64,000 nucleotides of DNA from Clostridium sp. BNL1100. Lineage in GTDB: Bacteria > Bacillota > Clostridia > Acetivibrionales > DSM-1351. The translations under genes were made by a program, and so were the position numbers. The notes under the pieces were generated by a model that did not search any database, was not told the origin of the DNA, and saw nothing but the letters and a program-made list of their open reading frames with translations. The stretch spans positions 2,857,001-2,921,000 of the forward strand of contig NC_016791.1 in assembly GCF_000244875.1 (NCBI RefSeq). Reading direction: 5' to 3'. Of this stretch, positions 6,152 through 13,737 are shown one piece after another; the first letter of the stretch is position 1; every line of letters starts with the position of its first letter.

Positions 6152-6445
6152 CTACAGTATAATACATATCAATCCGCCGCTGCCCTCATTTATTATTTTC
6201 TGCAAGGTTTCCTGAAGTTTGAGCTGTGCGTCCTCCGGCATTCTGAAAAGCTTGTTCTGCAATCCCTCATTAACGAGTTCATGGAGAGACTTTCCGAATA
6301 TGTTTGACTCCCATAATTTGCCGGTATCGTTTTCAAATTCTTTTAGCAAGTATGAAACCAACTCTTCAGATTGCTTTTCGGTTCCGACCAAAGGTGCTAT
6401 TTCTGTTTCAATATCAGCCCTTATCATATGTATTGTGAGGAACAA
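6152..6445 (-). CDS. spoIVA: SpoIVA, C-terminal part of the split gene
   Basis: The last 91 codons (from 6424 downward) encode the C-terminal domain of the spore coat morphogenetic ATPase SpoIVA. It includes IRADIETEIAPLVGTEKQSE and the invariant tail NEGSGGLICIIL, the region linked to coat basement-layer polymerisation and SpoVM-dependent anchoring. The first residues (MFLTIH) come from the inserted element up to the core. Joined at the 10-bp core with the 401 codons ending ...APSIH at 12469-13737, the frame continues APSIH-MIRADIETE to exactly 492 residues, the size of B. subtilis SpoIVA. As it stands this is a gene fragment, not an independent gene. Confidence 0.95.
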   Translation of the reverse strand: MFLTIHMIRADIETEIAPLVGTEKQSEELVSYLLKEFENDTGKLWESNIFGKSLHELVNEGLQNKLFRMPEDAQLKLQETLQKIINEGSGGLICIIL

Positions 6446-8067
6446 ACAGAAGTACTCTTTCGGTCCCGTAATATCTTATAATCAAAGGGTTTTGTCAATA
6501 CTTTAAAGTATACTTTCAAATCTATTTCGTTTTTCTTGTCTGTCTTATATACTTCAATCTTTTCTAGTAATGACTCTATTAATTTATTATCCAGTCCATC
6601 ATCATAATTAATTTCCTTCGCAATTATTTTTCGTAAGATTTCAACTGAATAACTTATTTCTTTGTTTTTCAATTCGTCCTCATCCAGTTCCTTTAACCTT
6701 ATACTCAGTTTATCAATATCCTCATTGAACCTATTGTTTCTTCTTTCAAACTCGTCATCAGACAGTCTTCCGTTTATACTTAACTCCAAAAGCTTGTCTT
6801 TCATTTTAAGTATTTGGTCAATCTCCGTCTTAACCTTGGCAATATCTTCTTTTATCTTGGATTGAGCTCCAAGGTTTGAATACATCGTAACCATTTCATG
6901 TATAATTTCTGAACGGTTAACTATTATCTCATCATATGCTTTCTTTATTATCATATCCAACTCAGATGTATATATGGATGGAGAAGTACAACCCTCTTTA
7001 CCCTTCTCAACGTACCTTTTACATTGCCATACTTCTTTATTCCCTGAACTGTAACGATAAAGTGTTCTGTAATATGGAACATTATGCTCTGTACAAATTA
7101 TTTTTCCGCTGTAGGCGTACTTGTTTTGGTAGCTTGTCTTATCTTCTGCCGATTGCTTTTCACTTCTGCCTTTTAAGATATAATTTGCCTTTTGCCATAT
7201 TTCTTCAGGTACAATTGGAGGGACTGTATCTTCATCTTTATACATAACCCATTCAGTCTGATCCAGATACTTTCTATCATGAAGCTTATAATCTAATTTG
7301 TGTGTTTTATTTCCGCAATAATATCCCATATATTTGGGATTTGTGAGAATACTCTTAATAGTAGAAAAAGAAAACGGATTACCTCTATTATTTTTTATTC
7401 CCATATTGTCAAGCTTGGCACTTATCCCTCTTATCCCCATATTTTGTGTAGCGTACATATCAAATATCAGTCTTACTATTTCAGCTTCCTTTTCATCGAT
7501 TATAAGTTTACCACTATCTTTTTTGTACCCCCATATTTTATTATTTCCAAGTACTACTCCTTTTTCAATGGCTCTTTTAAAACCGAATTTCACTCTCTCA
7601 GATATTTTTCTGACCTCATCCTGAGCTATACTGGACATAATTGTCAACCTCAACTCAGCATCGGGCATTAAGGTATTGATATTGTCAGACTGAAAAAGAA
7701 CCCCCACCCCATATGACAGCAATTCCTGAGTATACTTTATACTATCTAAGGTGTTTCTTGAAAATCTGGAAATCTCTTTTGTAATAATAAAATCAAATTT
7801 TTTGAGTTTAGCGTCTGAAATCATTTTAAGGAACGATTCTCTTTTATTTACACTTGTACCACTTATGCCTTCATCAATATATCCGTCTACGTATGACCAC
7901 TTCTGATTTCTTTTAATAAAATCCGAATAGTACTCTATCTGGTTTTTCAGAGAGTGAACCTGTTCATCCTTTTCAGTAGATACTCTTGCGTAATAAGTAA
8001 CTCTCAGATTTAAATCATATATTGTTTTACCCGTATTAAGTTCGTTTCTTATAGTGTACAAATCCAT
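6424..8067 (-). CDS. Large serine recombinase of the spoIVA element (SpoIVCA-like role)
   Basis: This 547-residue large serine recombinase has an N-terminal resolvase domain with the nucleophile in YYARVSTEKDEQ (Ser30). A recombinase domain, a zinc-ribbon-like region (CTEH...CKRY...CTSP) and a coiled coil near residues 400-480 follow. It is the obvious enzyme for integrating and excising element 1, as SpoIVCA is for skin. The ATG at 8067 is preferred because GAGGTG lies 7 nt upstream; a GTG three codons earlier is possible. Its stop codon touches the left core, so the last residues are read through the attachment site. A near-consensus sigma-A promoter lies upstream, and a copy of the attachment-arm motif lies in its leader. 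Confidence 0.95.
   Translation of the reverse strand: MDLYTIRNELNTGKTIYDLNLRVTYYARVSTEKDEQVHSLKNQIEYYSDFIKRNQKWSYVDGYIDEGISGTSVNKRESFLKMISDAKLKKFDFIITKEISRFSRNTLDSIKYTQELLSYGVGVLFQSDNINTLMPDAELRLTIMSSIAQDEVRKISERVKFGFKRAIEKGVVLGNNKIWGYKKDSGKLIIDEKEAEIVRLIFDMYATQNMGIRGISAKLDNMGIKNNRGNPFSFSTIKSILTNPKYMGYYCGNKTHKLDYKLHDRKYLDQTEWVMYKDEDTVPPIVPEEIWQKANYILKGRSEKQSAEDKTSYQNKYAYSGKIICTEHNVPYYRTLYRYSSGNKEVWQCKRYVEKGKEGCTSPSIYTSELDMIIKKAYDEIIVNRSEIIHEMVTMYSNLGAQSKIKEDIAKVKTEIDQILKMKDKLLELSINGRLSDDEFERRNNRFNEDIDKLSIRLKELDEDELKNKEISYSVEILRKIIAKEINYDDGLDNKLIESLLEKIEVYKTDKKNEIDLKVYFKVLTKPFDYKILRDRKSTSVCSSQYI
6426..6453. other. Left attachment site of element 1 (core plus arm)
   Basis: The core ATATGTATTG (6426-6435, plus strand) recurs at 12533-12542. 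The element-side arm AGGAACAAACAGAAGT (6438-6453) is the reverse complement of the right arm, with one mismatch. The predicted crossover is the dinucleotide at 6429-6430 (TG on plus, CA on the coding strand), seven bases from the arm. The site lies inside the 3' end of the recombinase gene. Confidence 0.88.
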
Positions 8068-8083
8068 CCTACACACCTCGTTT

Positions 8084-8096
8084 ACACTTCTGTTTG
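8084..8096 (+). promoter_or_regulatory. Copy of the attachment-arm motif in the recombinase leader
   Basis: ACACTTCTGTTTG here is identical to 12511-12523 of the right attachment arm. It lies just downstream of the predicted transcription start of the recombinase gene, where a bound recombinase could block its own transcription. Identity is seen; autoregulation is inferred. Confidence 0.55.
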
Positions 8097-8105
8097 ATAC
8101 TTTTC

Positions 8106-8133
8106 ATTATATTATCCGAATAATATTTGTCAA
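8106..8133 (-). promoter_or_regulatory. Sigma-A-type promoter of the recombinase gene
   Basis: On the minus strand, TTGACA (8133-8128) and TATAAT (8111-8106) are separated by 16 bp. Both hexamers match consensus exactly. It points into the recombinase gene. Confidence 0.75.
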
Positions 8134-8146
8134 CTGTTCTCCCAAT

Positions 8147-8169
8147 AAAAAAGCACCGATTTCCGGTGC
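8147..8169 (-). terminator. Terminator after the GH53 gene
   Basis: GCACCG/CGGTGC stem with a 5-nt loop, followed by six T residues on the minus strand. It separates the galactanase transcript from the recombinase promoter. Confidence 0.85.
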
Positions 8170-8190
8170 AATTTTAGTAATTAATATGTA

Positions 8191-9462
8191 CTAATTCAAA
8201 AAACCATCCAATGCAATTGTAGGCTTCCCATCAGAGTCCCAGCAGCCTTTATTGTAGCCGTTCATTCCCGGAAATGACTCCGGTTCCCAATAAAATACTC
8301 CCAAACCCTTATTGTTCGGTAACGATTTAGTCTTTTTTATCATGTCAGCAATAAATGACTTACTCTCTGAAGCATAGTTATATTGCATTCCTATTTCACA
8401 AATCATTATTTCTTTATTATACCTTGATACCATATCATTCATGTTCGAGAGGCATTGGCTTGAAAGAGCAGAATAGTTGTCTTTGTCAGGATATAGTGAC
8501 ATTCCGATAACATCGTATTTTGCTCCGTTGGAGTTAAGGCCGTCAAACATCCACCTGAACAATGTATTGTTAAATCCATTTGATATATGTACAATTACCT
8601 TGGTTTTGGAGCTTACAGCTTTTACAGCATCATAACCGCAATTTACGAGCCATGCGAAATTTTTCATATTATTCGATGCTTTTCCATCCTCCCATAGCAT
8701 CCCATTGTTGGTTTCATTCCCAACCTGCACCCACTCGGGTGATATTCCGTTATTCCTGAGTTGAGTCATTACATTATATGTATAGTCATATGTCATTTTC
8801 ATTAATCCATTGAAATCCAGGTTTAACCAGGCCGCAGGTTTTGTCTGCTTTCCGGGGTCTGCCCAGGAATCACTGTAATGAAAGTCGATCATAACTCTGA
8901 AACCCAAGTTATTGGCTCTCTTTGCCAAAGCTATAGTTTCGTTGGTACTGCAGTGTCCATTCCATTTATCTGTTGATGGATTTACCCAAGTTCTGATTCT
9001 CACGGAGTTGATTCCATAGTCTTTTAAAATTTGTAAACAATCCTGCTGATTGTCTTTATTATTATAAAACTTGTATCCGTTTGCTTCCATCTGTGGCAGC
9101 CAGCTTATATCAGCACCTTTTGCAAAAGTATTTGTGGGAGTTTCAATCGGAAACTTTTCTATAATTCCTAAAATAAAACTTTTTGTCAACGAAATATCCA
9201 ATGAATCTATGCTACCATCTCCGTTTACATCAGCAGCCCTTTTACCGTTAGCCTCAGGGAAGTCGGTTATATTTCCAAGTAAATAGCTTTTTATTAGTGC
9301 ATAATCCAAGGAATTTACTTCTCCGCTTCCGTCCACGTCACCATATAAAAGCTGTGAAGTGGCGGCTGATACCATATCTACATGCATAAAAAAGTTCTCG
9401 AAGAGTATCATCAAAACCAAAAGAGAGACAAAAATCAATTTATTTTTTTTAAAAGCATTCAT
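8191..9462 (-). CDS. Cellulosomal GH53 endo-beta-1,4-galactanase with N-terminal dockerin
   Basis: This 423-residue secreted enzyme should cleave beta-1,4-galactan or arabinogalactan side chains of pectin. After a signal peptide (about residues 1-33) comes a type I dockerin with two Ca-binding repeats, GDVDGSGEVNSLDYALIKSY and ADVNGDGSIDSLDISLTKSF. The GH53 barrel follows, starting at ADISWLPQME. The likely acid/base Glu is in QVGNETNNGMLW and the nucleophile Glu in MICEIGMQY. The dockerin should anchor it to a cellulosomal scaffoldin cohesin. I chose ATG 9462 because GGGGGAG lies just upstream; the open frame reaches 9534. It is cargo inside the spoIVA element, which is an odd place for a plant-polysaccharide enzyme. 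Confidence 0.95.
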   Translation of the reverse strand: MNAFKKNKLIFVSLLVLMILFENFFMHVDMVSAATSQLLYGDVDGSGEVNSLDYALIKSYLLGNITDFPEANGKRAADVNGDGSIDSLDISLTKSFILGIIEKFPIETPTNTFAKGADISWLPQMEANGYKFYNNKDNQQDCLQILKDYGINSVRIRTWVNPSTDKWNGHCSTNETIALAKRANNLGFRVMIDFHYSDSWADPGKQTKPAAWLNLDFNGLMKMTYDYTYNVMTQLRNNGISPEWVQVGNETNNGMLWEDGKASNNMKNFAWLVNCGYDAVKAVSSKTKVIVHISNGFNNTLFRWMFDGLNSNGAKYDVIGMSLYPDKDNYSALSSQCLSNMNDMVSRYNKEIMICEIGMQYNYASESKSFIADMIKKTKSLPNNKGLGVFYWEPESFPGMNGYNKGCWDSDGKPTIALDGFLN

Positions 9463-9559
9463 TATATCTCCCCCAATATGTTTCTTACTTATTAATGTAA
9501 TATTAAGTATATTATACCAATTAATGTAATGCATTTACAACCTTCATTATTTGACCAAC

Positions 9560-9582
9560 AAAAAAGCACTGTAAACCAGTGC
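9560..9582 (-). terminator. Terminator after the 44-residue ORF
   Basis: GCACTG/CAGTGC stem with a 5-nt loop, followed by six T residues on the minus strand. It lies about 30 bp after the stop of the small gene at 9614-9748. Confidence 0.8.
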
Positions 9583-9613
9583 ATTATAAAAGGCCATTAA
9601 TTTATTTTTGTTG

Positions 9614-9748
9614 CTACCCCTTCAAAATTATTTCCTTTGCTTTTGTATACATTTCTTCGGTTATATACCCTTGTTCAAACAGTCGCTGGTTGATATGTAG
9701 TTTAACTTCTACTATCACAAGCTTTACTGCCTCTTCATTAAAAGCCAT
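9614..9748 (-). CDS. Small 44-residue protein of the spoIVA element
   Basis: The frame begins MAFNEEAVKLVIVEVKLHIN and ends with a stretch containing GYITEEMYTKAKEIILKG. A strong GGAGG site lies 5 nt before the ATG and a terminator follows, so it is very probably translated. The charged helix followed by a GxITxEEY-like turn and second helix resembles SHOCT-type small domains that often accompany serine recombinases in clostridial elements. Its function is unknown. Given its size and place in the element, it could be a recombination directionality factor or another helper of the recombinase. Confidence 0.65.
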   Translation of the reverse strand: MAFNEEAVKLVIVEVKLHINQRLFEQGYITEEMYTKAKEIILKG

Positions 9749-10122
9749 TTTAACCTCCAATGTATTTTCTATCTGTTATAAATTTATTAGTTAAAAGCTT
9801 TTTTATGATTTAAATATAAAACCGTTAATTATTTCCGATTACTACAAACCGTGCATGGATTGAAACAGGTAAAAAACTATTGTTTACAGCGTATAATTAA
9901 ATGTAAAAATGTGTTATTATTGAAATGAATTTATTTTTGAACAAAATAATCGAAAAAGTAATATAAATATTTCAAAATATCATTTTTTTTACATTAAATG
10001 ATATCATTTAGGAGAAAAACATAATATAATGTAAATTAGGATAGGTATACTGGAAATTAATTACCCCTTGATTGAAAATAATAAAGATATTATCAAGTAT
10101 TCCGAGCTTGGAGGGAAATATA
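9749..10122. promoter_or_regulatory. Divergent intergenic region with a 16-bp palindrome
   Basis: This 374-bp AT-rich gap separates the small minus-strand gene from the AgrC-like kinase. TAAATGATATCATTTA (9995-10010) is a perfect palindrome upstream of the kinase. A 15-bp portion of it recurs at 34076-34090 downstream of another promoter. A weak TTGAAC...TATAAA pair (near 9937 and 9962) could be the kinase promoter. No other gene or RNA is evident. Confidence 0.35.
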
Positions 10123-11415
10123 GTGTTTATAATCGGTCAGCTGTTGATAAATACATTGTTTGCAATGATAACTGCCTACATAACTTACTTATTTCTTAAA
10201 GAAAATTTTGATATAAAAATACAACTGAATTTTTTAGTTGCATTTATTGCTTGTAATGGTGTGCTAAACGGATTTGTGTCTACTTTGTGGATGAGTGTAC
10301 TTCCCGTACCGGGAAATCTACAATTCCTTAAATCTATAATTTTGACAATCCTCAACATAATTTTAATTAAGTATCTACTACGTGTTGAATGGCTAAAATC
10401 GGTATTATCCTTTTGTTTGATTATACTTTTTGTTGGAGTAGGAAATTTTACAGTGCCATTGATTTTTTATTCCGTAGGTATTAATGCAACACCTGAGACA
10501 ATAAATAATAATCTATTTTTATTTTTTATTATGAATCTGATTATTTATTGCCTAGCCCTGATTCTTATTAAATTTATACCTTATGCTAAATTAATCGGAA
10601 ATATAAAAAACCTTACACCTGTAGGTATTCTACTTTTTATTACCATATTGATAATGGCCTCTTTTCTTGGAATGCATTTCGTAGTTCACTTTGACCCTGT
10701 CTCATTTGTTATTGTACTTATTTCATCTCTCTCATATTTCTTTTTCTCGGCTTGGTATATAAACATCTATCATAAATACGAAATGAAGAAGGAAGAACAA
10801 AAGCAGCAGGAATTTTATAATGAATCCCTTGCCAATACACTTCATGATTTAAGACGTATAAAACATGATCAAATGAATCACCTCTCTGTCCTATACGCTA
10901 TGCACCAAATGAACAAGTATGATGCGGCTGCTTCATATCTAAAAGAAATAATAGGGACAAGTCAAAGTATAGGAAATACTGCTATTTACAATATTAAGAA
11001 TGCCGGACTATTCGGATTAATATCATCTAAAGTAAACTATGCTAATAGCCATGGAATTAATTTTGACTTGGATACCATCGGCGAAGTTGATTCTATTCCC
11101 AATATTAAAATTTCTGATTTATGTGAGGTAATAGCTATTTATCTTGACAATGCACTGGAAGAGGTTTTAAATAACGGAAAACTTAAGCTTGATATGAAAA
11201 TTTTAAGTACAGATGAAAGCCTTACAATCAGAATAGAAAATGAATGTACTAAAACACCTAACACAAAAAACTCATCAAAGGGTACAGATCGTGGAAACGG
11301 GTTAGTCATTGCAAATAAAATAATTGCTTCATATAAAAATATTTCAAGTTCTACTATATTTGATGAAAAAAGAATGATATTCTCACAAGTTCTAAGAATG
11401 GCAAAAGAGGCTTAA
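10123..11415 (+). CDS. AgrC-like sensor histidine kinase (GHKL family)
   Basis: This protein of about 430 residues has six or seven hydrophobic segments in its first 220 residues. A short coiled coil and the AgrC-type phosphoacceptor region DLRRIKHDQMNHLSVLYAM follow. A GHKL ATPase domain has an N-box around YLDNALEEVLNNG and a glycine-rich GTDRGNGLVIANKII. It is predicted to sense a cyclic peptide made by the adjacent AgrBD. The GTG at 10123 has GGAGGG 7 nt upstream; a TTG 17 codons earlier (10072) has no good site. It converges on agrD with 14 bp between stops. No AgrA-type LytTR regulator is in the window, so its phosphotransfer partner is unknown. Confidence 0.85.
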   Translation: MFIIGQLLINTLFAMITAYITYLFLKENFDIKIQLNFLVAFIACNGVLNGFVSTLWMSVLPVPGNLQFLKSIILTILNIILIKYLLRVEWLKSVLSFCLIILFVGVGNFTVPLIFYSVGINATPETINNNLFLFFIMNLIIYCLALILIKFIPYAKLIGNIKNLTPVGILLFITILIMASFLGMHFVVHFDPVSFVIVLISSLSYFFFSAWYINIYHKYEMKKEEQKQQEFYNESLANTLHDLRRIKHDQMNHLSVLYAMHQMNKYDAAASYLKEIIGTSQSIGNTAIYNIKNAGLFGLISSKVNYANSHGINFDLDTIGEVDSIPNIKISDLCEVIAIYLDNALEEVLNNGKLKLDMKILSTDESLTIRIENECTKTPNTKNSSKGTDRGNGLVIANKIIASYKNISSSTIFDEKRMIFSQVLRMAKEA

Positions 11416-11429
11416 CAGCCTCTTTTTGC

Positions 11430-11564
11430 TTACTTGAGTAATGATTTTGGACATTCTTTTTGATAATAAGACCAAAACCAGCATGCACCTGCAGAAGCAG
11501 TAGCTGCAAATACTCCAATTAGAGATAGAACAGTTAGTACCAGTAATTTAATTTTACCCTTCAT
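11430..11564 (-). CDS. agrD: AgrD-like cyclic autoinducer prepeptide
   Basis: This 44-residue frame is too short for most gene callers. It has a Lys-rich amphipathic leader (MKGKIKLLVLTVLSLIGVF), a small-residue stretch ATASAGA, then CWFWSYYQKECPKSLLK. The Cys followed by aromatic residues and the ECPKSL tail match clostridial AgrD precursors, for example the CLWFT...EPKSL pattern of C. perfringens. By analogy the mature signal would be a five-membered CWFWS thiolactone; that is inference. Its ATG overlaps the agrB stop (ATGA, 11561-11564), so it is translationally coupled to the processing protease. Confidence 0.85.
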   Translation of the reverse strand: MKGKIKLLVLTVLSLIGVFAATASAGACWFWSYYQKECPKSLLK

Positions 11565-12145
11565 GTAATTATCCCACCCCTCTTATTTTTTGTTAATCTA
11601 TACACTATTGGTGTAATATTAACCGTAGATATTAGTGTAATTACTGAAATGATATTTGAGTAAATATTAGGAACTATTAGTGTAATAACAAAGCATATTA
11701 CTAATAGAATACTACATTTTATCCTTAAATCCCTTTTTCTTTTTTCAGTAACAATTGGTTTTGACACCAGATCAGCAGGTGCGTATAGAAATGTCAAAAT
11801 TCCTGATATAGTAAATAAAACTATATTTAAGAATTTTATATTAAGAATCTGTGCCAGATATACAGTACCAAATATAAACGTAAAGTGAGTGATTACACAT
11901 CCGATTTGTGTTTTTGCATGTACTCCTCCTAAATAGGATTTATTTAATGAAAACACTATCACAGCAACTATGGCATATTTAAATTGTCCCAGGAGTAACG
12001 CTGCAATTAACACTGTAAGTAATTTCAAACCATCTGCGAAAGCCATATACAATCCGTAATCAATTTGTTCAGCTTTTTCTTCTGAGATTCCCGGGATATT
12101 TGAAACAATCTCATTAGTGATTTTCTTTGTTATATCCTCTAGCAC
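11561..12145 (-). CDS. agrB: AgrB, autoinducer-processing membrane protease
   Basis: This 194-residue membrane protein of the AgrB family (PF04647) cleaves and cyclises AgrD. Visible features include the N-terminal amphipathic region, several membrane segments, the catalytic His in YLGGVHAKTQIGCVITH and the Cys seven residues later. These fit the conserved H...C pair of the cysteine endopeptidase. A GTG start (12145) follows GGCGGTGATT. It overlaps agrD and forms an agrBD operon with the kinase convergent on the other strand. The 323-bp region upstream (12146-12468) must hold its promoter; I see no convincing hexamers there. Confidence 0.9.
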   Translation of the reverse strand: MLEDITKKITNEIVSNIPGISEEKAEQIDYGLYMAFADGLKLLTVLIAALLLGQFKYAIVAVIVFSLNKSYLGGVHAKTQIGCVITHFTFIFGTVYLAQILNIKFLNIVLFTISGILTFLYAPADLVSKPIVTEKRKRDLRIKCSILLVICFVITLIVPNIYSNIISVITLISTVNITPIVYRLTKNKRGGIIT

Positions 12146-12397
12146 TCAATCACCGCCACTTACATTTTACACCATTATATCCTATTTTTCTTTCTTTGTC
12201 GATATTATTTTCTTTATATTAATATGTTTCCAATTGAACAGTAAACGTGATATATCATATTAAGAAAAAGGGGATATATTGCATAATATTATATTTGAGT
12301 ACTAAATGTTACATTTTTGATCCAGCTATGATGACTTCTTTATTTAATAAATAAATTAATAAAGTCAAGCTGCATTCATCGGCACACAAAATTGTAG

Positions 12398-12420
12398 CCT
12401 GCAAAGATTTTCTTTGCAGG
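12398..12420. terminator. Perfect hairpin between agrB and the spoIVA 5' part
   Basis: CCTGCAAAGA and TCTTTGCAGG form a perfect 10-bp stem with a 3-nt loop. The T-run is weak on both strands, so it may end transcription from the interrupted spoIVA gene or simply be structural. Confidence 0.45.
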
Positions 12421-12468
12421 ATTTAAATTTATGAAACCCCTATTAGTATTTGAACATTGAATTTAAAT

Positions 12469-13737
12469 TCATGCGGTTTTGTTGTTCCGGCACCTCCTCT
12501 TGTTACACATACACTTCTGTTTGTACCTAACAATATGTATTGAAGGAGCACTTGCTCTAAGTTTCACCCCAAACTTGTTACCCTGCTTGATAATCTCCGG
12601 TTCCTCCAGAGTGAGTTCTTCCATCTGAGGCGAGACCATTCCATAGCCCTTAACCTTAACTTCATGCAAGGCATATTCTACCCTATCATATTCCTTTTTT
12701 ACCCTTGCAAGGTCTTTTATAAGGCTTATGAGTTTATGCTCACCCTCTATTTCCATTCCAGACTCTTCGCTTAAAATTCTATACAAAAGTCCGTCAGCAG
12801 CCGACAAATCGATTAAAACAGTACCTTCCCCAAGGCTTACCTTATCAATAACTGCCCTCTTAACAAATTCATATTGTTCAAAAGAAGGTAGAGCATCCTT
12901 TATTGCACGTATTTTCGTGGCTGCTTTAAAGGTATCTCTTATTGAATTTATAATGTCTGCTTTTAACCAATGAGAATCATCCAAAGCTTCAACCCATTTT
13001 GGTATATTAATACCTATTTCACAGATTGGAAACTCATGTAGAACCTTTTCCATAACGGTATCAACATCATCAATTCTCATTTGGAGACAATCCATTGCTA
13101 TTACGGTTACACCGTACTTTTGCTCCATCTCGTCACGCAATTTCAATGTTTCTGAATCTCTTGGATTTGTTGAATTAATAATCACTACAAAAGGTTTATT
13201 TATAGCCTTCAGTTCTGTTATTACCCTTCTTTCAGCTTCAACATAATCCTCTCTTGGGATATCTGAAATTGAGCCGTCTGTTGTGATTACAATACCGATG
13301 GTTGAATGTTCATTGATTACTTTCTTTGTCCCAAGCTCAGCTGCTTCCTCAAAAGGTATCTGATGATCATACCACGGTGTTGAAACCATTCTCGGGGCAT
13401 TATTCTCCAAATGTCCCATTGCACCTTTGACCATGTAGCCCACACAGTCAATCATTCTTACTTTAAGTTGCACGTTTTCATCAATAACAACTTCTACTGC
13501 TTCGTTGGGGATAAATTTAGGTTCAGTGGTCATTATAGTTCTTCCGGATGCACTTTGCGGAAGTTCATCTATTGCCCTCTCTTTTTGATATGTGTTCTCT
13601 ATATTAGGGATAACCAACAAATCCATGAACCTTTTAATAAAAGTTGATTTTCCCGTCCTGACAGGTCCCACAATTCCTATGTAAATATCCCCTTGAGTTC
13701 TTTCAGCTATTTGCTGGTATATGTTGAATTTATCCAC
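12469..13737 (-). CDS. spoIVA: SpoIVA, N-terminal part of the split gene
   Basis: Residues 1-401 are the ATPase and middle domains of SpoIVA, which builds the basement layer of the spore coat in the mother cell. The Walker A motif GPVRTGKST places Lys30 and Thr32 as in B. subtilis. DCVGYMVKGAMGHLENNAPR and TDGSISDIPREDY are family hallmarks. After APSIH the frame enters the element and adds 21 foreign residues (from IVRYKQKCMCNK) before a stop, giving 422 codons. The GTG start follows GGGGAGGG. It lies beside gpsA-plsY-der, a common clostridial order. Without its C-terminal 91 residues this product should not support normal coat assembly. Confidence 0.95.
   Translation of the reverse strand: MDKFNIYQQIAERTQGDIYIGIVGPVRTGKSTFIKRFMDLLVIPNIENTYQKERAIDELPQSASGRTIMTTEPKFIPNEAVEVVIDENVQLKVRMIDCVGYMVKGAMGHLENNAPRMVSTPWYDHQIPFEEAAELGTKKVINEHSTIGIVITTDGSISDIPREDYVEAERRVITELKAINKPFVVIINSTNPRDSETLKLRDEMEQKYGVTVIAMDCLQMRIDDVDTVMEKVLHEFPICEIGINIPKWVEALDDSHWLKADIINSIRDTFKAATKIRAIKDALPSFEQYEFVKRAVIDKVSLGEGTVLIDLSAADGLLYRILSEESGMEIEGEHKLISLIKDLARVKKEYDRVEYALHEVKVKGYGMVSPQMEELTLEEPEIIKQGNKFGVKLRASAPSIHIVRYKQKCMCNKRRCRNNKTA
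12513..12542. other. Right attachment site of element 1 (arm plus core)
   Basis: The arm ACTTCTGTTTGTACCT (12513-12528) is the inverted partner of 6438-6453 (15 of 16 bases). The core ATATGTATTG is at 12533-12542, and the predicted crossover dinucleotide at 12536-12537. The seven-base spacing between arm and crossover equals that at the left end. Confidence 0.88.

Follow-up and report, generated by a model that had tools for sequence, protein, structure and literature searches.

A serine recombinase element splits spoIVA at an exactly restorable junction in Clostridium sp. BNL1100 and its relatives

In the parts of the literature available to us, the sporulation genes described as interrupted are sigK, spsM, spoVFB, spoVR, gerE and yabG. 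Here we analyze a 64-kb stretch of the Clostridium sp. BNL1100 genome (the window, whose coordinates we use), in which spoIVA is split by a 6.1-kb element encoding a large serine recombinase. Like this element, skin, found in sigK of B. subtilis and C. difficile, splits a mother-cell gene, encodes a large serine recombinase and restores the gene by an exact join. Published excerpts describe the C. difficile skin as needing a small recombination directionality factor (RDF), CD1234, and the spoIVA element has a 44-amino-acid candidate for that role, here called the companion. The two differ in target gene and in that the B. subtilis skin is called prophage-like in those excerpts, whereas the spoIVA element is 6 kb long and carries agr and GH53 genes; moreover, the recombinase gene of the spoIVA element terminates inside the core repeat that flanks it.

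SPbeta, which resides in spsM and encodes sprA and sprB, provides the nearest solved integrase, both by profile over most of the protein length and by the fold of a relative of our recombinase (locus L073). According to the accessible portion of the report, sprA is already expressed during growth, and timing is set by the sporulation-induced, 58-amino-acid sprB (PMC4191935). The sigma-A-like promoter of the spoIVA-element recombinase fits this scheme of a growth-expressed recombinase with a small second gene, here the companion. Unlike the spoIVA element, SPbeta is an active prophage, and the companion has no sequence match in the PDB at E values up to 1, although the chain of the SPbeta RDF (YotN) is in the library. 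The gin element of B. cereus is, in the parts of its description available, likewise non-phage and pairs a serine recombinase with an additional factor, GirX, but it is 28.6 kb long, has three recombinases and lies in gerE. Finally, yin in yabG of C. botulinum and vfbin in spoVFB also interrupt sporulation genes, and excision restores yabG; the available accounts describe them as prophage-like, and they occupy other genes.

The kind of element is known, and what is new is its target, a signalling cargo without phage genes, a C-terminal switch in the integrase and wide recurrence. The author of a preliminary description of the window was aware of no described spoIVA case, and our literature search agrees: no published spoIVA interruption appears among the matches listed, with subscription papers, preprints and supplements outside the coverage. 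Galperin 2012 (PMC3533761) names the spoIVA gene of C. cellulolyticum H10 as one of those that annotation had omitted, and the words 'interrupted', 'recombinase' and 'prophage' are absent from its main text. Annotation can miss a split spoIVA, as seemingly happened in C. cellulolyticum.

A single-copy spoIVA divided at a core repeat

In BNL1100, a cellulose-degrading bacterium, the essential spore-coat gene spoIVA is interrupted between codons 401 and 402. The intervening element measures 6107 bp and is flanked by two copies of a 10-bp core, CAATACATAT, spaced 6107 bp apart. Read on the minus strand, the ATPase and middle domains of SpoIVA begin at 13737 and extend to the core copy at 12542-12533; the C-terminal domain is encoded from the core at 6435-6426 onward to 6152. 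The parts, including the open reading frame (ORF) of each half, are as follows.

12533..13737, minus strand: spoIVA 5' part, codons 1-401 plus core; Pfam SpoIVA_ATPase and SpoIVA_middle; sole 5' match in the genome
12469..12532, minus strand: element-derived end of the 5' ORF (12469-13737), 21 extra codons plus stop; tail frame open in 6/6 interrupted genomes
6152..6435, minus strand: spoIVA 3' part including the core; Pfam SpoIVA_C; sole SpoIVA_C match in the genome
6436..12542, unstranded: intervening element, 6107 bp with one core copy counted, bounded by the core positions
6426..6435, minus strand: core copy CAATACATAT, 3'-part junction
12533..12542, minus strand: core copy CAATACATAT, 5'-part junction

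Pfam assigns residues 1-237 of the 5' ORF to SpoIVA_ATPase and residues 238-405 to SpoIVA_middle, and the 97-amino-acid 3' ORF matches SpoIVA_C across all 76 profile positions. The preliminary description had given the 5' part as SpoIVA residues 1-401, which is correct for the SpoIVA codons; the ORF itself has 422 in the integrated state, the last 21 derived from the element. Its central claim, that a recombinase-bearing element cuts spoIVA and that the gene can be restored exactly, is borne out, as both fragments lie where it placed them and joining the halves at the core yields 492 residues with the junction APSIHMIRADIETE. The same join yields 492 residues in 6/6 interrupted Ruminiclostridium genomes. 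The BNL1100 genome is a single contig of 4,613,747 bases, 99.99% complete, and a whole-genome search with the 5' part and SpoIVA_C gave one match to each; a second intact spoIVA copy, a possibility that the preliminary description had raised, is thereby excluded for this assembly.

All 11 Ruminiclostridium genomes carry spoIVA. The site is occupied in six of them, namely G000 (BNL1100), G002 (which we take to be C. cellulolyticum H10), G005, G006 (probably R. papyrosolvens DSM2782), G007 (R. papyrosolvens C7) and G009 (R. sufflavum DSM 19573), and is empty in the other five. A comparison with uninterrupted relatives, as the preliminary description had proposed, gives a clear outcome: the five intact genes encode 492 amino acids, the same length as the join, with SAPSIHMIRADIETE at the junction position (open frames of 497-521 codons). 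Core-to-core distances are 6107 bp in G000, 6270 bp in G007, 5895 bp in G002, 5380 bp in G006, 6297 bp in G005 and 39,424 bp in G009, and the recombinases of the other five elements are 81-96% identical to that of BNL1100. In a tree built from the spoIVA 5' part the interruption state takes two changes, with the interrupted G009 sister to the intact G003, and on the recombinase tree G009 is sister to the remaining five. Either a single gain followed by a clean loss or two gains would fit these trees.

Across the five small elements (10 pairs), the mean ratio of nonsynonymous to synonymous substitution rates (dN/dS) in spoIVA is 0.006 for its 3' part and 0.039 for its 5' part. Of the element genes, the recombinase has 0.060, the companion 0.080, AgrD 0.076 and the kinase 0.093; the GH53 gene, present in four elements (6 pairs), has a mean of 0.064. 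The 3' part is under extreme constraint, and both spoIVA parts, the integrase and the companion are under strong purifying selection. Because its dN/dS is so low, a functionless separated 3' part would be unexpected.

Our favored explanation, which we hold with considerable confidence, is that the element is excised during sporulation and thereby rebuilds spoIVA exactly. The proposal in the preliminary description of a precisely excisable, recombinase-bearing element accords with empty sites in 5/11 genomes, the same architecture in six, purifying selection, the single copy and the sporulation of C. cellulolyticum. In the accessible part of the source, wild-type C. cellulolyticum sporulated at 35.7 +/- 7.3% by heat survival (PMC3936895), and Ruminiclostridium is described, in the passages available, as a spore-forming genus. 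Because a single-copy gene is split, its join is exact, its 3' part is constrained and C. cellulolyticum forms heat-resistant cells, excision in sporulation is very likely, and making SpoIVA probably requires a genome rearrangement. As in elements of the skin type, a sporulation gene can be restored by exact excision and a large serine recombinase adjoins an attachment site. The spoIVA step is earlier than those of the known interrupted late mother-cell genes; if spoIVA needs excision, rearrangement would act earlier than in the cases known so far.

Two alternatives would dispense with excision. The split protein could function as two polypeptides, in keeping with the conservation of both parts and with a tail frame of the 5' ORF that is open in 6/6 genomes. 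However, the 3' ORF could start only at a TTG inside the last codons of the recombinase and, judged by eye, lacks an evident leader; the halves join exactly in 6/6, and the junctions consist of a palindromic attachment site (attP, see below) and the core; we regard this possibility as very improbable. Still less credible is a dead, recent disruption in strains unable to sporulate, or an error of assembly. The same arrangement is found in six assemblies of the genus and recurs in other families, the five recombinases have a mean dS of 0.61 and a dN/dS of 0.06, and C. cellulolyticum sporulates.

The recurrence in other families comes from a survey of the class, in which SpoIVA was found in 280/391 genomes and split cases, taken from the matches listed, are a lower bound. 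Among 13 genomes with divided or weak matches that were checked, at least seven outside the genus hold both parts, split near residues 403-412 (G028, G097, G183, G313, G327, G363 and G366), and G282 has the C-part only, from residue 399. The remaining five did not enter the count: G041 and G116 break off at contig edges, G127 and G140 look frameshifted, and G296 is matched at residues 5-100 only. G161, with a weak match, was left out of the follow-up. The parts share one contig in G028, G313 and partly in G363, and lie on separate contigs in G097, G183, G327 and G366, where the split may be an assembly break. A related recombinase adjoins the C-part in G028, G313, G363 and G183, the last with an insertion site shifted by about eight codons; G097 has a partial match, and no relative was found in the fetched stretches of G366, G327 and G282 (0.5-12.3 kb). 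Such recurrence across families points to programmed restoration of genes being commoner in spore formers than the few printed cases indicate.

Attachment sites, integrase and a candidate directionality factor

The predicted recombination machinery of the BNL1100 element comprises the following features.

6424..8067, minus strand: large serine recombinase, 547 amino acids when integrated, stop codon overlapping the core; Resolvase, Recombinase and Zn_ribbon_recom domains
12429..12533, minus strand: 34 codons plus stop extending the recombinase to 581 amino acids, in the circle only; from the circle frame and alignment with the C-termini of relatives
8106..8133, minus strand: sigma-A-like promoter TTGACA-N16-TATAAT upstream of the recombinase; conserved in 5/6 elements
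6443..6453, plus strand: attP arm (CAAACAGAAGT half-site), 3'-part side; 11-mer match
12513..12523, minus strand: attP arm (the same half-site, inverted), 5'-part side; 11-mer match
8086..8096, minus strand: third copy of the half-site, in the recombinase leader; 11-mer match
9614..9748, minus strand: 44-amino-acid companion, candidate RDF; kept in 6/6 elements of the genus; dN/dS 0.080

The joined ends of the element form an inverted repeat centered on CA, which reads ACTTCTGTTTGT, six bases, ACAATA, CA, TATTGT, six bases, ACAAACAGAAGT. In BNL1100, 21/24 positions match, and since 0/100,000 letter shuffles of both arms reach this value, the repeat is not due to chance. The joined ends of the six Ruminiclostridium elements match at 18-22/26 positions (the shuffle control being that of BNL1100 only), and nine other joined ends, scored without a shuffle control, match at 16-20/24; L069 was left out of this scoring. 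The locus thus has the inverted-repeat attP around a non-palindromic dinucleotide (CA) that characterizes large serine integrases. There are exactly three copies of the 11-base half-site in the window, one in each attP arm and one between the promoter-like sequence and the recombinase start, where the recombinase presumably binds its own leader for autoregulation.

The recombinase matches a PHROG integrase family at 4e-116 and, in a PDB search, SPbeta integrase chains over positions 69-512. It has the Resolvase, Recombinase and zinc-ribbon domains of a large serine integrase, and S30, presumably the catalytic serine, is invariant in 7/7 sequences. Among its relatives in genome contigs we examined the best 80 of 578, to which all locus counts refer: 34 have a SpoIVA C-part at most 2.2 kb downstream, five have another arrangement of SpoIVA fragments and 41 have none, one of these (L093) with an intact SpoIVA. 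Both SpoIVA parts fall within one locus in 8 of the 34, from 3.5 to 11.6 kb apart, and no SpoIVA was found in any of 37 viral contigs. In L042, L055, L052 and L070, SpoIVA fragments are otherwise oriented or lie on the opposite side of the recombinase, and these elements may be inverted or differently laid out. A structural model of the relative L073 (mean predicted local distance difference test score, pLDDT, 77.6; predicted template modelling score, pTM, 0.37) has SPbeta integrases as its best structural match, with an E value of about 1e-20 and a template modelling (TM) score of only 0.34-0.49.

In 6/6 elements of the genus the recombinase ORF enters the core and meets its stop codon there, at 547 codons; the circle form has 581 codons, except in G009, where it has 580. 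Seven relatives, L073 among them, retain their own gene end, and their C-termini align with the tail added in the circle. In the L073 model this tail makes up the final strand of the terminal sheet. The BNL1100 integrated form was also modelled (mean pLDDT 78.6, pTM 0.39), and there the last residues have a pLDDT near 50. Extension codons 22-34, which lie past the stop of the SpoIVA tail, are stop-free with a nonsynonymous-to-synonymous ratio (pN/pS) of 0.20, whereas over codons 1-21 the recombinase and SpoIVA-tail frames have ratios of 0.45 and 0.47 and are not separable. Of the 34 loci with a downstream SpoIVA C-part, 26 have a recombinase ORF that extends to the core and six have one that stops short of it, with two unscored. 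Judged from the reading frames, integration would remove the last 34 residues of the integrase and the circle would restore them; our guess is that the truncated 547-residue form is biased towards excision. A perfect short hairpin at 12398-12420, just past the stop of the circle form and before agrB, is a possible terminator, with no clear T run by eye.

The promoter-like TTGACA-N16-TATAAT stands at the same position before the recombinase in 5/6 elements of the genus, G002 being the exception. The strict pattern alone occurs six times in the window and hence is not rare, so that its weight appears to lie in the conserved position rather than in the pattern. The leader half-site is exact in four elements, imperfect in G009 and absent in G002. 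A sigma-A-like promoter in five of six elements would also suit an ordinary mobile element that is excised at random in growth, with spores arising from a subpopulation already without it. The cargo varies between hosts, G003 lost or never had the element, and yin of C. botulinum is excised at all time points according to the accessible part of its report (PMC10747680), all of which would fit such behavior. Nevertheless, the integrated form is on record in 6/11 genomes, the host and recombinase trees both set G009 outside the other five, which suggests long retention, and an element would presumably be lost quickly if only element-free cells sporulated. We consider random excision unlikely, though worth keeping in mind.

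The companion follows the pattern IEVKL-INxxLFExGYITEEMYTKAKEIIL and is encoded on the recombinase strand in 6/6 Ruminiclostridium elements, three of which are seeds of the search model; in BNL1100 the GH53 gene sits between it and the recombinase. With a model built from eight seeds (the BNL1100 window, L013, L014, L062, L063, L066, L069 and L098), a match was found at most 250 bases from the recombinase start in 38 of the 80 loci and only at 0.4-8.6 kb in 11, with none in 31. All matches in loci are on the recombinase strand, and four of the 37 viral contigs also have one. Within 3 kb, the companion accompanies 29/39 SpoIVA-linked loci (five of them seeds) versus 17/41 others. Searches of NCBIfam, PDB sequences (E up to 1) and phage records returned nothing for it, and its weak resemblances are to SHOCT types (SHOCT_2), GvpG and YqgQ (Pfam, all below cut-off) and to phrog_2996. 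By analogy with SprB and CD1234, the companion is the best candidate for the RDF. Sigma-E and sigma-K patterns before the companion and before spoIVA were compared by eye and set aside, the fits being too weak.

If excision takes place during sporulation as we propose, spoIVA would remain split at codon 402 in growing cells. In sporulation the companion would turn the serine integrase to excision, and the left and right attachment sites (attL and attR) would recombine at the CA dinucleotide of the core. A 6.1-kb circle would be released and spoIVA rebuilt exactly, allowing mother-cell coat assembly to proceed, and the germ line would retain the element. We infer excision itself, its limitation to the mother cell and the role of the companion. 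The small elements could offer a minimal integrase-helper pair for studying directional control.

Several observations weigh against this proposal. The companion is absent within 3 kb in 10/39 SpoIVA-linked loci, and because it is also near 17/41 loci without a SpoIVA link, it belongs to the recombinase family and not to spoIVA elements alone. No convincing sigma-E or sigma-K promoter was seen before it by eye, and the sigma-A-like promoter of the recombinase could permit excision during growth. The G002 element (L014) has neither this promoter nor the leader half-site, its recombinase lying closely behind the GH53 gene. L062 combines a split spoIVA with a frameshifted recombinase, and in G282 there is no recombinase relative in the 11.8 kb before the SpoIVA C-part.

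Cargo without phage virion genes

Four further genes make up the cargo of the BNL1100 element.

8191..9534, minus strand: dockerin and GH53 glycosidase, probable cellulosomal enzyme; Pfam Glyco_hydro_53 and Dockerin_1; in 4/5 small elements
11561..12145, minus strand: AgrB-like peptide processing protein; Pfam AgrB, 5e-38
11430..11564, minus strand: AgrD-like 44-amino-acid signal peptide precursor; TIGR04223 AgrD above cut-off; 5/5 small elements
10072..11415, plus strand: AgrC-like GHKL sensor kinase; Pfam HATPase_c_5 and SPOB_a

The agrB, agrD and kinase genes are common to the five small elements, and the gene for the GH53-dockerin protein is found in four. No response regulator (AgrA) was seen by eye among the element ORFs, leaving less than a full Agr system. 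Three further AgrB genes are present in the BNL1100 genome. In R. papyrosolvens C7, a second AgrB (G007:C69:41547-42128), 86% identical to that of the element, lies on the same contig as a split sigK, and the agr module of the element may derive from a host locus. If the element gates SpoIVA production, its agr cargo would link a signalling module to a sporulation gate.

Compared with PHROGs, six ORFs of the window yielded nothing beyond integrase and invertase families, matched by the recombinase, and a single family of unknown function, matched by AgrB. We therefore disfavor a prophage or prophage remnant, as PHROGs revealed no virion or replication genes among these ORFs. Cargo of the larger elements in G009, G028, G313 and G363 includes, across the four, transporters, glycosyltransferases, LicD and DNA methylases. 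A scan of 74/81 of their ORFs hit 77 PHROG families, and the 25 that were listed include no virion family. For the 39-kb element of G009 a prophage was likewise set aside, its larger ORFs resembling transporters and other cargo. Among phage records, the best match to the recombinase has 47% identity over 81% of its length and the next nine listed have 30-34%; plasmid records give 33.5% identity in the ten listed (best 10 of at least 5000). By its gene content, the spoIVA element appears to be a site-specific mobile element without recognizable phage virion genes.

Related integrases at other sporulation genes

In a quick tree of the recombinases (115 rows, with a long-branch warning), the SpoIVA label takes 8 changes, compared with a shuffled mean of 34.4. 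SpoIVA-linked recombinases fall in a large clade (35/46 rows), a clade of uncultured Bacilli (7/7) and G183; rows L059, L062, L093, L134, L146, L147, L154 and L155 do not enter the count.

For 26 of the 41 loci without SpoIVA the downstream gene was inspected, and 13 have parts of sporulation-type genes while 13 have none (L053, L058, L060, L061, L064, L065, L072, L078, L079, L092, L104, L108 and L117); L081, L083 and L113 were added later to the set of other targets. Pieces of a sigK-like sigma factor were found in L080, L081, L083, L084, L085 and L086, confirmed by Pfam only in L086; the L080 piece had no Pfam match, and the remaining ones are assigned by motif. For L101, L105, L109, L113 and L115 the adjoining piece is the C-half of a transpeptidase-PASTA protein, identified by Pfam in four and by motif in L113; in L101 and L105 a motif of the N-half lies on the far side of the element. 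In L088 and L090 a carboxypeptidase S11 begins at profile position 40, and in L095, L110 and L114 the recombinase frame continues into a sigma-factor-like tail, by motif only. We take these targets to be SigK, SpoVD, DacF and SigG. A shared-word search for the other halves of the interrupted genes recovered nothing useful. Taken together, these loci suggest that the relatives of the recombinase form a family specialized for sporulation genes.

A broader reading, tentative and in our view rather doubtful as a whole, would combine several of these features. An integrase clade specialized for sporulation genes would have colonized spoIVA repeatedly, with related clades in genes of the sigK, transpeptidase-PASTA (SpoVD-like) and D-Ala-D-Ala carboxypeptidase types. 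Its C-terminus would be switched by integration, from 581 to an excision-biased 547 amino acids with loss of the last beta-strand, the circle regaining the integration-competent form, and DNA rearrangement would be a common gate on coat assembly across Clostridia.

The sigK-like gene of BNL1100 itself (L157, G000:C1:1665000-1680000) is in three pieces, at 1666094-1666435, 1673017-1673121 and 1678498-1678770. Two intervening elements with two different serine recombinase ORFs separate them, and the middle piece encodes 35 residues. The same three pieces occur in G006, only the first split is found in G002, and the gene is intact in G003.

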